A stretch of 48,081 nucleotides of DNA from contig SOJN01000038.1 in NCBI GenBank assembly GCA_004376575.1, positions 1-48,081 on the forward strand, in the 5' to 3' direction. Below, in pieces: positions 22,494 to 42,124 of this stretch. The stretch comes from a candidate division TA06 bacterium. GTDB lineage: Bacteria; Hydrothermota; DG-26; E44-bin18. Under the pieces are notes generated by a model. That model was not told where the DNA came from. It did not search any database and was given only the letters and a program-made list of their open reading frames with translations. The position numbers were made by a program, and so were the translations under genes. How positions within the stretch are numbered: the first letter of the stretch is position 1; every line of letters begins with the position of its first letter.

Positions 22494-23981
22494 TTGAAGA
22501 TAATACTCGCTGGCTACAACGTAGACGCAGATGTGATCGACGAGCTTGCAGCCAGTAGAGAAATGGGCGACGTCACTCCGGAAACCATATCCGCGGCATA
22601 TGCAAGGATAAGCAGGGACCCCAGGCCTGTTGATGAGCTTCGCAAACTCGCTCGTAAAGAGGTGGAGAAGGCAAGAAGGTCAAACAAGAACATCATCTTT
22701 GGGTTGGGTCACCACTCAGTTGCAGAACACGCAGTTTTCAATTTTGATATAATAGGGGTCTCCAGGCTTGCCATTGAAGAGATAGAGAAATTCAGACTGT
22801 GCTCATATACAGAGAAGTCCCAGCGGTATATAACACTGAAAGATGAGTTCATAGTTCCTCCTGAGATTCAGGGCTCCAATCTCGAGAGCCGGTTTGTGAA
22901 GACTGTGAATGCGCAGAATGAGCTCTACCACAAGCTTTTTGACAGGCTGAAGGAAAGAGTCGCGAGGTGGTATCACGATGAGGCGGAATCTCCTGGTGAG
23001 CTAGGAATCATAGAAGGGATAGCAAAGGAGGATGCAAGATACATAACCTCTCTCGCAACCGCAGGACAGCTTGGTGAAACAATCAACGCGCGAAACTTGG
23101 AGCTTCTTCTGAGGAGGTTTGCATCGCATGAGCTTCTGGAGGTTAGAGAGATAGGCAAACGGATGTATGAATGCGTGGCAGATGTTGCGCCAAGCATAAT
23201 CTTGTTCACGGAAGCAAATGATTATGATCAGAAGACATATCCGGCACTGCGCACTGTTTCGGCCGATTTGGCGAAGACCGGTATTCAACCTGAACGGCCC
23301 GTTACTGTCCAGCTTGTTGACTACACCAAGGATGCCGACCTTGTCCTGGTGGTAGCTCTTCTTCATACTTCAACGGAGATGTCTTACCAGAAGTGCAGAG
23401 AGGTGGGTGAGAAGCTATCCCTTGAGAAGAAACGGGAGATTGTCAAAACTGCCTGCCAGCGCATGGAGCTTTATGATCCAGTATTGAGAGAGTTCGAATA
23501 CATACATCTCAGCTTTGACATTGTTGTCTCGGCTTCAGGTTTCGCTCAGCTTAAGCGACACAGAATGGCGACCATTACTGTACAGAATTACACTCCGGAG
23601 CTGGGGTTAACTGTACCGCAGTCAGTTATTGACTGCGGTATGGAGAAAGAGTTTTCATCCGTTGCTGAAATGAGCGAAAGGAGCTATCACGCGCTTCTCG
23701 AACAGTCGCCTTCTGTTGCTCCTTATGCTTTGACCAATGCCCATAGAAGAAGAGTACTGCTGGGGTTGAATGCGCGTGAACTCTATCACTTCTCGAGGTT
23801 GAGAGAAGATCTAACTGCTCAATGGGAGATAAGATCGGTTTGCAAAAGGATGACAGAACTGGCCAGAGAAATCATGCCTCTTACAGTGCTTCTTGTGGGT
23901 GGAAAGGATTCCTACCCGGGGATTTATGAACAGGTTTATGGCAAACCCCCCAAAGTCCTTAAACCCGAACTGCCTACCTGA
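22494..23981 (+). CDS. thyX: Tandem (two-domain) FAD-dependent thymidylate synthase-like protein
   Basis: At 495 residues it is twice the usual ThyX length, with two homologous halves. Half 1 has GHHSVAEHAVFNF then KFRLCSYTEKSQRYI (about 100-111), aligning with the family RHRxxSxNExSxRY signature but lacking RH. Half 2 has LKRHRMATITVQNYTP (RHR at about 354-356), keeping RHR but losing the SxNExS part, and ends with an intact NARELYHFSRLRED...AQWEIR nucleotide/FAD segment. So each half retains a different portion of the active site. Normal ThyX methylates dUMP using methylene-THF and NADPH as a homotetramer. The start is TTG. Whether it makes dTMP or a modified nucleotide is open. Confidence 0.85.
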   Translation: MKIILAGYNVDADVIDELAASREMGDVTPETISAAYARISRDPRPVDELRKLARKEVEKARRSNKNIIFGLGHHSVAEHAVFNFDIIGVSRLAIEEIEKFRLCSYTEKSQRYITLKDEFIVPPEIQGSNLESRFVKTVNAQNELYHKLFDRLKERVARWYHDEAESPGELGIIEGIAKEDARYITSLATAGQLGETINARNLELLLRRFASHELLEVREIGKRMYECVADVAPSIILFTEANDYDQKTYPALRTVSADLAKTGIQPERPVTVQLVDYTKDADLVLVVALLHTSTEMSYQKCREVGEKLSLEKKREIVKTACQRMELYDPVLREFEYIHLSFDIVVSASGFAQLKRHRMATITVQNYTPELGLTVPQSVIDCGMEKEFSSVAEMSERSYHALLEQSPSVAPYALTNAHRRRVLLGLNARELYHFSRLREDLTAQWEIRSVCKRMTELAREIMPLTVLLVGGKDSYPGIYEQVYGKPPKVLKPELPT

Positions 23982-24069
23982 CGAAAGGCCTTCAGCTGTC
24001 ACAACTCAGTACTCAATCGAAATTGAGAAAACGGAAATCAAAAATCACCCTGGCGCGCGCACCCCGGAA

Positions 24070-24235
24070 TGTCATTGCGAGACTTGGGGAGCGAGGCGAA
24101 GCAATCTGGCACAAGCAGATCCTTCGGCGGAGTTTATGCTGCCTGTCCTGAGGGCTTCCGAAGGGAGCGAGGTCCCGCCCGTCCCGAGCCTGTCGAGGGG
24201 AATTTATGGAGGGACGGAGCCGAAGGATCTAGCTG
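24070..24235 (+). repeat. Composite dispersed repeat, copy 3
   Basis: It starts GTCATTGCGAGACTTGGGGA and continues GCGAAGCAATCTGGCACAAG, then a GCCTGTCCTGAGGGCTTCCG-type tail. It fills most of the gene-free stretch 23982-24326. Confidence 0.8.
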
Positions 24236-24326
24236 CGGGCTGGACACCAGGGACCAGACACAGAAAACTTGGTGCGAGATCATAGATCATAGATCTGAGA
24301 TCTTGGATAGTGGGGGCCGGTCATTG

Positions 24327-24355
24327 TTGACATTGGGGTGAAGGCGTCGTAAACT
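24327..24355 (+). promoter_or_regulatory. Promoter of NHL gene, leaderless geometry
   Basis: TTGACA (24327-24332), a 17-bp spacer and TAAACT (24350-24355). The ATG at 24357 is one base after the -10 box and cannot be transcribed; ATG 24366 is 10 nt after it. Confidence 0.8.
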
Positions 24356-24365
24356 TATGGTTGAG

Positions 24366-38199: not shown

Positions 38200-38283
38200 T
38201 TATTAAGTGACAAGGATGGGGCGGCAGGGAGCCGCCCTTCCTTTCGTGCGATGTGCCAGGCTTCCTGTAAGAAGAGCTCTCAT

Positions 38284-39885
38284 ATGGATATTAGAAGACG
38301 GTTTTTGCTGTTGTCTATCATTACTCTTGTGGGCCTTTCGGCCACTGCGACATGTTTGTCGGAAGAGGATGGGCCCAGGATCGTTTCGAAAGCCCTTGGC
38401 GGTCAGCCCCTTTCCCCCGCTGGTGTTCCTGTCCCGAGTTTTGGGGACACAATCAGGTATGACGACGGCACGCTCACCTTTGGACTCTGGCTCCCCGGGG
38501 AAGATGTCTACTGGGCAATGAGGTTCACGCCTGCCATGGACTGCACCTTGAAGGAAGCACATTGCGCCATTGATATCTGGTCTGGTCAGGCACCGACCTG
38601 CACGCTTATTGTCTGGGATGACAACGGTGGAGAGCCTGGAACTCGTGTATTCAGCACGACCTTCACACCGGACACAACAGGCCTGAACGTTATCGATATC
38701 ACAAGCGTGATCACATATCCGGAGTCAACAGACTTCTGGATAGGCTATTTCCTTCAGGCACCTGCTGGTCTGGACACCACACTTGCGGGGGCAGACTCCG
38801 CGGTGGATTACAACGAGAGGAGCGGTATTGGTGTCTCGGGTGTCTGGTACACTATGAATGACCTTGGTGGCGACGGAGACCTGATCATAAGAGCATTCGT
38901 AGAATACTACGGACACGATGTTGGGACAGATTCAATAACAGGTCTGCCTGATACTGTCAGGCCGGAGTCCACCTACTCACCTGTCGCATGGGTACACAAC
39001 TACGGAATTCACTCTGAGAATTTCCTGGTGGAGTGTCTCATCAATCCGGGAGGATATTCCGATACGTTTCAAGTGCTGTCTCTTGCCCCTGCCGCAGATA
39101 CCGAGTGTGTTTTCAAGCAGTGGACAGTTCCTCCTGATGACAGTACGCCTTACACTATGTGCGTGGCAACGCTTTTGGCGTCGGATGCGGATCTGAGCAA
39201 TGACACGTTGTGCAAGGGAACCTACGCAGTGAATCCGGTCATACATAATGCTGGGGTAGATTCAATCACAAGTCCTCCTGATACAGTATGGACCGGCATG
39301 GACTACAGTCCTGTGGCATGGGTGCACAACTATGGGGGCAGCAGTGAGTATTTCTTAGTAATCTGCCAGATTGACAGCTTTGGTGGTGTGGTCTACACGG
39401 ACACAAACCAGGTGCTTAATCTTGCCCCTGGAGGGGATCAGGAAGTAGGGTTCACTCAATGGACTGTGCCTCCTGAGCAAGGAGTCCCTTACAGGACCTG
39501 CGTCTGGACTATACTCATTGGTGATATTGACCCATCGAACGACACTTTGTGCATGTTGAGTTATGCCATTACCGGCGTAGCAGAAGAGTTGTACGTTCGC
39601 AGGCCACGTCGCCTGTTGCTTCACACGATCGTTCCCAATCCTTTCTCCGTGTCCACCACGATCTTCTACGAGATACCTGTCCCCGGGAGAGTGAACGTTC
39701 GTATCTACGACGCCGCCGGAAGGCTCGTCAGGACCCTCGTGGATGACGAGACTTCTCCCGGTAATCACAGGACAATATGGGACGGGAAAGGCGATGACGG
39801 CCCTGGGGTCCGAGACGGAGTCTACTTCTGCAAGCTCTCCGTGGGCAGGCTCGAATCTACAGCCAAGTTAATCCTTATCAAATAA
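38284..39885 (+). CDS. Secreted CARDB/FlgD-domain protein (533 aa)
   Basis: ATG 38284 starts a clear signal peptide (MDIRRRFLLLSIITLVGLSATA). The N-terminal beta domain (about 45-215) has WDDNGGEPGTRVFSTTF and SVITYPESTDFWIGYFLQ, seen in exported proteins predicting disulfides. Two tandem CARDB-like repeats follow, each with the phrase YSPVAWVHNYG and closing LSNDTLCKGTYAV / DPSNDTLCMLSYAI. The C-terminus is a FlgD_ig-type domain: IVPNPFSVSTTIFYEIP, VRIYDAAGRLVRTL, TIWDGKGDDGPGVRDGVYFCKL. That tail is used as a sorting or anchoring domain in several phyla; the secretion machinery is not in this window. Confidence 0.8.
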   Translation: MDIRRRFLLLSIITLVGLSATATCLSEEDGPRIVSKALGGQPLSPAGVPVPSFGDTIRYDDGTLTFGLWLPGEDVYWAMRFTPAMDCTLKEAHCAIDIWSGQAPTCTLIVWDDNGGEPGTRVFSTTFTPDTTGLNVIDITSVITYPESTDFWIGYFLQAPAGLDTTLAGADSAVDYNERSGIGVSGVWYTMNDLGGDGDLIIRAFVEYYGHDVGTDSITGLPDTVRPESTYSPVAWVHNYGIHSENFLVECLINPGGYSDTFQVLSLAPAADTECVFKQWTVPPDDSTPYTMCVATLLASDADLSNDTLCKGTYAVNPVIHNAGVDSITSPPDTVWTGMDYSPVAWVHNYGGSSEYFLVICQIDSFGGVVYTDTNQVLNLAPGGDQEVGFTQWTVPPEQGVPYRTCVWTILIGDIDPSNDTLCMLSYAITGVAEELYVRRPRRLLLHTIVPNPFSVSTTIFYEIPVPGRVNVRIYDAAGRLVRTLVDDETSPGNHRTIWDGKGDDGPGVRDGVYFCKLSVGRLESTAKLILIK

Positions 39886-40271: not shown

Positions 40272-40369
40272 CGAATGTGAGACAGCAAATACTGACAATG
40301 AGAGGGGGTGGTTTGTTCCGGAGTTTTCTTGTTTGAGCAGAGTAGCCCAATCACAATAGGAGGTTTGTG

Positions 40370-42124
40370 ATGAAGAAGTTTTTGGTCTTTCTTGTATTTG
40401 CATCTGCAACTCTCATTGCCGTCAGTTCCTGGGCTGAGACGATGGCTCCGAGCCAAAACGCGGCCAGAAAGACCACTGAGGAGTGGATATCGCCCAAGAA
40501 TTATGAAGGCGACATAACTCTCGGCGAGGAGTGGATTACTTACTATGACGGAACACCGGCCTGGATCTGGTGGAATGGCCCTGAAAGGGCGACCATATTT
40601 GACCCTTTCGACTTCCCCAACGCGGTATATCCATTCTGGATCAAGAAGGTGAGGACTACTTTTGTGGAACAAGCCCCGTATCTCTGGGGCCCGTGCAGCC
40701 TTTTCACATTCAAAATCTACGACGATGATGGATCGAACTTGCTCTACGAGTCTCCTGAGCTGGTTGCAGCCAAGCGTCCTTTGAAAACAGAGCTTGACCT
40801 GGGCCCAGACTCAGTTGAGATCACCTGGGGGAAATTCTACGTTGCAGTCCACCCCACTGTATGTTGGGAAAGCCTTCCATACCACCCTACCAGCCTTACT
40901 GATGGTGCCTTCCAGGGCCACACCCGTTACGGGGTCCAAGGTTCTTGGGGTGGTGTCTATCCTAATGGTGAGATATACCATGAAGCGTATGTCGCCTGGG
41001 GAGTACTTCAGCACGATGTCTACGTAATGGATATTCTCGCGCCTGGATATGGTGCGGAAGTTAACACCAGTTACCCGGTCAGGCTGAATGTGAAAAACAG
41101 TGGTACCGATACTGAAACCTTTGACGTGGAGGTCTTGATCATAGCTGGTATTGACACAGTATATGCGGACACGCAAAATGTCGCGAGTCTTACGGGCGGA
41201 TCCGTCAGGACGGTAGTTTTCGCCAACTGGACTCCGCTTCTGTATGGCCAGCAGTACAATGTGAAGGCAAAGACGTTGCTGCCCACAGATCAGAACCCGA
41301 ATAATGACGAACTGACAAAGATCACAGAGACTTATGAATACGGCGAAATAGCATATGACGATTTCGAACAGGACGGCTACTGGGTTGTCACTCAGCCGAA
41401 TGGTCCCCAGGACGCGTTTGGAGTCAAGCTCATACCTCAGTTCTCACCCCCTTTTAGAGTTCATAAGTTCAAGATCTACGTGAACTCCGTAGTGCCGTTC
41501 GATAATGTAAGACTGTGCCCTGATAATTTGGGATTTCCTGACTACAACAATCCCTACGATGAAATAGCTGCGCCCAATGCGAGTAACCCGCCCGAGTGGA
41601 TCGTCCGTGATTTCGACTCGACTCAGACTTATATCAGTACTTCTCAGCCAATATGGCTCTGCGCACAGTTTACGAACGGAGGGGATGGCCCTGGCGTCGG
41701 TGGCGATGCCGATCCGCCGATCAGCCTCAAGTCATACTATACACAGGATTTCTCCACTTGGAATCTTGTCGCCCAGAACTTCATGATGAGGATAATCCAT
41801 CTGCCGACTGTTGGTGTCGAGGAAGAGTTTGCTCTCAGAAGGGATGTGCGCACAAAACTCTACCAGAACACTCCGAATCCCTTTAGAAGGAGCACGACTA
41901 TCAAATTCAGTATATCTCTGCCGGTCCATGCATCGCTAAAGGTGTACGATATTGGCGGAAGGCTCGTCAGGACTCTTCAATCTGGCACCATGGAACCAGG
42001 CATTCATACTGTTCCCTGGGATGGGAAGGACGAAATAGGCAGAAACGTAGCAGCGGGAGTTTACTTCTACAAGCTTAACGCTGCCAGAACCAGTGAGACG
42101 ATGAAGATGATTATGGTCGAGTAG
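40370..42124 (+). CDS. Secreted FlgD-domain protein (584 aa)
   Basis: AGGAGG 6 nt before ATG 40370; signal peptide MKKFLVFLVFASATLIAVSSWA. The N-terminal beta domain (EEWITYYDGTPAWIWW, FTFKIYDDDGSNLLYESPEL) resembles the one in the 38284 protein. One CARDB-like module is central (HDVYVMDILAPGYGAEVNTSYPVRLNVKNSGTDTETFDVEV). A second beta domain (about 325-475) follows. The FlgD_ig-type C-terminus is LYQNTPNPFRRSTTIKFSISL, LKVYDIGGRLVRTL, PWDGKDEIGRNVAAGVYFYKL. It is a partial paralogue of the preceding gene, expected at the cell surface. It is followed by a good terminator. Confidence 0.82.
   Translation: MKKFLVFLVFASATLIAVSSWAETMAPSQNAARKTTEEWISPKNYEGDITLGEEWITYYDGTPAWIWWNGPERATIFDPFDFPNAVYPFWIKKVRTTFVEQAPYLWGPCSLFTFKIYDDDGSNLLYESPELVAAKRPLKTELDLGPDSVEITWGKFYVAVHPTVCWESLPYHPTSLTDGAFQGHTRYGVQGSWGGVYPNGEIYHEAYVAWGVLQHDVYVMDILAPGYGAEVNTSYPVRLNVKNSGTDTETFDVEVLIIAGIDTVYADTQNVASLTGGSVRTVVFANWTPLLYGQQYNVKAKTLLPTDQNPNNDELTKITETYEYGEIAYDDFEQDGYWVVTQPNGPQDAFGVKLIPQFSPPFRVHKFKIYVNSVVPFDNVRLCPDNLGFPDYNNPYDEIAAPNASNPPEWIVRDFDSTQTYISTSQPIWLCAQFTNGGDGPGVGGDADPPISLKSYYTQDFSTWNLVAQNFMMRIIHLPTVGVEEEFALRRDVRTKLYQNTPNPFRRSTTIKFSISLPVHASLKVYDIGGRLVRTLQSGTMEPGIHTVPWDGKDEIGRNVAAGVYFYKLNAARTSETMKMIMVE

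Follow-up and report, generated by a model that had tools for sequence, protein, structure and literature searches.

The gene at positions 22494–23981 on the forward strand of the window, the 48,081-nucleotide stretch of DNA analysed here, encodes a fused ThyX of 495 amino acids whose two domains carry complementary, role-specific half-sites, and which is a variant form of a known kind of enzyme. Judged from residue alignment, the division of the active site between the two domains coincides with the published division between subunits in ordinary ThyX; the C-terminal half takes the role of subunit A and the N-terminal half the roles of subunits B and C. From this pattern we infer a dimer, the number of its sites and its activity: the protein is probably a working thymidylate synthase, an (N-C)2 dimer in which two sites are complete and two are dead. 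ThyX enzymes are essential in many microbes, are a studied drug target, and build their active sites from three subunits. Ordinary ThyX sites are thus already composite, and what would be new in the tandem is that the contributing units are non-identical, giving two complete and two null sites.

The reading frame opens with TTG, which we consider the correct start because the ATG of homologues aligns at the same residue, and closes with a stop codon at 23979–23981. Pfam assigns Thy1 (PF02511) to two stretches of the product (E = 3e-64; 216.8 bits against a cut-off of 24.8), which define an N half of residues 1–262 (22494–23279) and a C half of residues 263–495 (23280–23978). The NCBIfam thyX model, TIGR02170, gives 139.4 bits against a cut-off of 87.9, so that both curated cut-offs are exceeded, and it is also matched by all 16 members of the tandem set A2. 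There is no dedicated tandem model in NCBIfam, where these proteins fall under the general thyX model. Thy1 is the only family that Pfam gives the protein, the ThyA family (PF00303) being absent. The ThyX motif RHR(x7)SxR is found in neither domain by itself; RHR occurs in the C half only and SxR in the N half only, and the motif is complete solely when the two halves are combined.

The N half reads EKFRLCSYTEKSQRYITL, in which the SxxExSxRY substrate-recognition and active-site loop is intact (SYTEKSQRY, residues 104–112, 22803–22829, with the equivalents of Thermotoga maritima E86, S88, R90 and Y91) and a degenerate KFR (K99-F100-R101, 22788–22796) stands where RHR is expected. This half retains H73, S75, E107, S109, R111 and R182. 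In the alignment H73-H-S75 (22710–22718), which is missing from the C half, corresponds to H53 and T55, with the subunit B role on the FAD and folate side; R91 (22764–22766) corresponds to Arg87 of Mycobacterium tuberculosis ThyX, with the subunit C role at dUMP; and E179-D-A-R182 (23028–23039) corresponds to E144 and R147, with the subunit C role at the dUMP phosphate. The C half reads QLKRHRMATITVQNY and NARELYHFSRLREDLTAQWEIR, with RHR and the NAR..AQWEIR region intact. Here QLKRHR (352–357, 23547–23564) matches Q75 and R78-H79-R80, the subunit A role at FAD, and NARELYHFSRLREDLTAQWEIR (426–447, 23769–23834) supplies N163, R165, N/H169, R174 and Q180; Q352, RHR (355–357), R437 and Q443 are all retained. 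Its SxxExSxR loop is gone, as are the partner residues: in MATITVQNY (358–366, 23565–23591) a two-residue deletion has removed E86 and L87, and S88 and R90 are substituted. All of these features lie on the forward strand. The initial annotation had read the first half as keeping SxxExSxRY with KF for RH, and the second as keeping RHR and NAR..AQWEIR with the SxxExSxR-type portion lost; the sequence bears out both readings.

These two sets of residues can be set against published subunit assignments. In the M. tuberculosis ThyX site, the RHR residues (95–97) and Arg199 come from Subunit A, Ser71 and Arg190 from Subunit B, and Arg87, Ser105, Arg107 and Tyr108 from Subunit C (PMC6514825); our alignment maps these to T. 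maritima positions 78–80 and 174 (A), 55 and 165 (B), and 70, 88, 90 and 91 (C). Gln75 and Arg182 of PBCV-1 ThyX belong to monomer A, and Ser88 and Gln89 to monomer B (PMC3498832), and H53 is contributed by a third monomer (PMC11940539). In PolB, one monomer contacts the phosphate and uracil through Phe79, Arg82, His83, Arg86, Arg193 and Gln206, and the next through Glu94', Ser96', Ala97', Arg98' and Arg166' (PMC5003785); the transfer of these residues to T. maritima numbering, above all that of Gln206 to Q180, is our own mapping. Functionally, S88A, R90A and Y91A impair methylene transfer in the T. maritima enzyme, and R174 activates dUMP (PMC8316439).

As two different subunits provide the B and C roles in solved ThyX, and the N half holds both sets, a full site would need two N halves besides one C half. 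An (N-C)2 dimer would offer exactly two such sets. The two remaining positions would combine A-role remnants of the N half with B- and C-role remnants of the C half, nearly all contacts being missing. The proposal of the initial annotation, that the duplicated halves form obligate composite sites, perhaps two per dimer, is thus supported by the conservation pattern laid over the published subunit assignment.

The predicted structure agrees with the family assignment. A single-chain AlphaFold2 model (45 tandems) has a pLDDT of 89.1 and a pTM of 0.87; pLDDT falls below 50 only at residues 108–114, in the active-site loop, and the same loop is flexible in solved ThyX structures. Foldseek recovers the ThyX fold, the best PDB match being 3hzg_A (E = 1.9e-8, TMt 0.72) and the closest folds those of M. 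tuberculosis and T. maritima ThyX. We conclude that the tandem belongs to ThyX by both sequence and fold, and that it probably works like ThyX. The model places both halves confidently as one unit, and each chain carries the A and C half-sites once, as would suit a monomeric two-lobed enzyme in which the N and C halves of a single chain form one composite site with no second chain. We consider this rather unlikely, however, because different subunits of solved ThyX structures take the B and C roles, which here are both on the N half, and two chains would be needed.

With the standard enzyme (TIGR02170, PF02511; T. maritima TM0449, M. tuberculosis 3GWC) the tandem shares the fold in each half, the catalytic and FAD/dUMP residues when both halves are counted, the genomic role and, likely, the reaction; it differs in having two domains per chain, with half-sites on non-identical domains, and a predicted two sites per dimer in place of four per homotetramer. 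PolB, a ThyX-type UMP/dUMP methylase, has the same fold and a two-monomer dUMP site, but is a single-domain homotetramer with both half-sites on every chain (PMC5003785). Thermus thermophilus Thy1 (6J61), also among the fold matches, is likewise an extended ThyX, but, judged by its PDB title, it comprises one ThyX and an extra C-terminal domain, with no second ThyX.

The generality of the split is seen in an alignment of 76 type-1 tandems, divided by half, with 31 single ThyX proteins that include T. maritima TM0449, the residue numbering of which was checked against known key residues. In T. maritima numbering, Q75, R78, H79, R80, R174 and Q180 are each present in 76 of 76 C halves, and the R70 equivalent (M. 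tuberculosis Arg87), E86, S88, R90, Y91, R147 and H53 each in 76 of 76 N halves, with S/T55 in 75. Conversely, subunit A residues are few in the N halves (Q75 and Q180 in none of the 76, R78 in 11, H79 in 17), as are B and C residues in the C halves (R70, E86 and H53 in none, T55 and R147 in one each, R90 in 7, S88 in 10); SQRY persists in two C halves. At the RHR position the N halves have KFR (32 of 76), HHR (10), RFR (9), KRR (6) and other triplets, with RHR itself in two. The change of RH to KF described in the initial annotation is thus one among several N-half states.

The partition is not perfectly strict. R80, R165 and Y91 are common to both halves, and R174 is frequent in the N halves too (60 of 76), so the dead sites have not been fully stripped. 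These persisting residues could indicate that all four sites are partly active, the degenerate ones being weaker or allosteric. This is very unlikely, as in nearly all 76 tandems the degenerate sites are without RHR, Q75 and Q180 on one side and without S88, R90, E86, R147 and H53 on the other. An unbiased scan of all 52 positions at which conservation among single ThyX proteins reaches 60% or more found 11 kept only in N halves (27, 28, 52, 53, 55, 62, 84, 88, 90, 144 and 147) and 7 kept only in C halves (75, 78, 79, 173, 179, 180 and 181), and all of those with a documented role are sorted by subunit role. Among 15 role-bearing positions, 11 are on the predicted side, 4 are shared and none is on the wrong side. 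Were each of these 11 free to fall on either side, the chance of such sorting would be ∼2 × 2^-11, a figure that is a guide only, given the shared ancestry of the tandems and the non-independence of the halves. The split is far beyond chance and, kept among homologues, is nearly absolute over the 76 type-1 tandems.

We propose that the tandem is the cell's flavin-dependent thymidylate synthase, composed of two subfunctionalised ThyX domains on one chain. The C half would give the subunit A set (Q75, R78-H79-R80, R174 and Q180), holding the FAD phosphates and activating dUMP. The N half would give the subunit C set (the R70 equivalent, E86, S88, R90, Y91 and R147), which may close over dUMP and drive methylene transfer, together with H53 and S/T55 of the subunit B set, predicted to contact the flavin and folate. 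A pair of chains would then associate as a ThyX-type pseudo-tetramer, each of its two live sites drawing on both N halves and on one C half, with the other two sites devoid of nearly everything. The reaction would pass from CH2-THF to reduced FAD to dUMP as in ThyX, and the chemistry is probably unchanged. A changed reaction, offered in the initial annotation as an alternative, is not favoured: the FAD, dUMP and methylene-transfer residues all survive across the halves, and no other thymidylate synthase was found in the genome.

Genome content supports this role. In the window genome, which is 97.4% complete, the sole Thy1 matches are the two domains of the tandem gene, and PF00303 finds no ThyA anywhere; the search for a separate thyA or canonical thyX that the initial annotation had proposed as a check thus yields neither. 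The genome has tmk, and no thymidine kinase at threshold. Thymidine kinase was discarded as an alternative source, since the weak matches across the phylum (19–26 bits, mostly in frames of ∼360 amino acids) resemble other P-loop proteins. A homologue of the deoxynucleoside kinase (dNK) family is present, and thymidine salvage through it is possible, so that the tandem need not be essential. The 16 further tandem genomes contain no additional Thy1 and no full-length ThyA, four of them having only partial, weak PF00303 matches (27–39 bits).

The same relationship extends across two phyla. Type-1 tandems occur in ∼75 of the 147 genomes of the window's phylum, and a full-length ThyA stands beside the tandem in only one of them (G089). 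Candidates for a canonical ThyX beside the tandem in this phylum came from three genomes and were rejected, being two broken frames (G011), a contig-edge fragment (G132) and an RTR paralogue (G136). In the second phylum, that of the Aminicenantes genome G152 (199 genomes sampled), Thy1 is found in 146 genomes and full-length ThyA in 44, with no overlap. We conclude that tandem, single ThyX and ThyA replace one another genome by genome in the two phyla; mutual replacement of ThyA and ThyX has been described in general (PMC4177761).

Two other readings bear on this evidence. The tandem might keep ThyX chemistry and use a different or wider range of acceptors, in the way that PolB uses UMP, or draw on another carbon source; PolB shows that the ThyX fold can serve other acceptors (PMC5003785), and the halves lie on long stem branches. 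We regard this as quite unlikely, however, given that every dUMP and FAD contact is kept across the halves and that the tandem substitutes for ThyA or single ThyX in one genome after another. Nor, despite the degeneracy of either half by itself, does a pseudoenzyme or regulatory protein seem a credible reading, with catalytic residues invariant over the combined halves and the tandem being, in most carriers, the sole candidate for a thymidylate synthase.

Some loci carry further ThyX sequences. The two broken frames of G011, a genome of the window's class, encode a single-domain ThyX (L079, G011:C80:31300-32250) on the same contig as the tandem and ∼27 kb from it, likely a relic or a sequencing error. 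The paralogue in the tandem-bearing genome G136 (L080, G136:C16:31580-32400) is divergent, with RTR for RHR and a very long branch. A conserved operon was sought and rejected, the neighbours of the tandem varying by locus (SppA, Fur, TyrRS, PurN-type, Sua5-type, MscS); a nearby SppA is shared only with G011.

A contig scan of bacterial and archaeal genomes returned 16 tandem homologues with 50–61% identity, from records labelled Aminicenantes, Acidobacteria, Gemmatimonadota, WOR-3, Elusimicrobiota and, in one case, an unplaced bacterium. Three more distant tandems (L067–L069) are present in the window's phylum, and in the second phylum ∼103 of the 146 Thy1 genomes have two Thy1 matches, which, among those listed, lie mostly in one frame of ∼480–960 amino acids. 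Being widespread in two phyla and other records, the tandem architecture is common and old, and neither a local peculiarity nor an artefact of assembly. In three second-phylum loci, L113 (G171), L114 (G352) and L125 (G298), Thy1 lies in longer frames of ∼690–960 amino acids, suggesting extra N-terminal additions or merely long open frames.

The division of roles recurs outside type 1. Fifteen type-2 tandems, comprising L067–L069 and sequences of the second phylum, show the same N/C division, with H-S-H-P-FYNSEQxSQRYV in the N half and DSQDQRHRM..SRP in the C half. RHR, Q75, R174 and Q180 are present in 15 of 15 C halves; H53, S/T55, S88, R90 and R147 are present in 15 of 15 N halves, and R78, R80, Q75 and Q180 in none. 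The single type-3 pair (L113) agrees with the split. A 458-residue tandem ThyX in a record labelled as bacteriophage from human faeces (L129; MT835736.1, 15426-18911) is split in the same way, reading EFRLASFTVKSRRY / FTRHRMQSIEI..NAREL..LRTCSRAQWEIR, and adjoins a gene of the thymidylate-kinase family and one for a YgjP-like metallopeptidase. Five IMG/VR loci (L130–L134) hold type-1-like tandems, with the same split wherever both halves are readable. Their contigs, of 40–470 kb and classed as viral in IMG/VR, may be from large phages or from misclassified bacteria, and in L132 the N half lies outside the open frame of the C half. That the window gene came from a phage was considered and set aside, phage records reaching at most 26–33% identity.

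In the tree, the type-1 N halves form one clade and the type-1 C halves another, each fully supported; the monophyly of each fits inheritance as a unit. An AU test of all N halves as one clade gives p = 0.33, and the stem branches are long; types 1–3 may stem from one fusion or from several. It is possible, and we suggest it only tentatively, that the tandem arose more than once (in type 1, type 2 and the phage record), the first copy each time taking over the B and C roles and the second the A role. If true, this would be a repeatable route from a symmetric homotetramer to an enzyme that is obligately asymmetric and has half as many sites. The tandem would offer a clean case of a symmetric oligomer made asymmetric through duplication and complementary loss, and with subunit roles on two distinct domains each role could be mutated alone, which homotetramers do not permit. 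In the open literature searched we found no description of tandem, duplicated or fused ThyX, or of ThyX in these phyla, which does not prove the form to be new. Much of two bacterial phyla may make thymidylate by an enzyme form without description in that literature.

Other features of the window lie apart from the tandem gene. The intergenic region that follows it (23982–24356) contains an inverted repeat (24117–24128 / 24219–24230) and, at 24183–24199, a match, with two mismatches, to the REP-like sequence CCTGAGCYTGTCGAAGG, for which 0.01 matches are expected in the window. Farther along, two large proteins (38251–39885 and 40367–42124) carry C-terminal type IX secretion sorting domains (TIGR04183).
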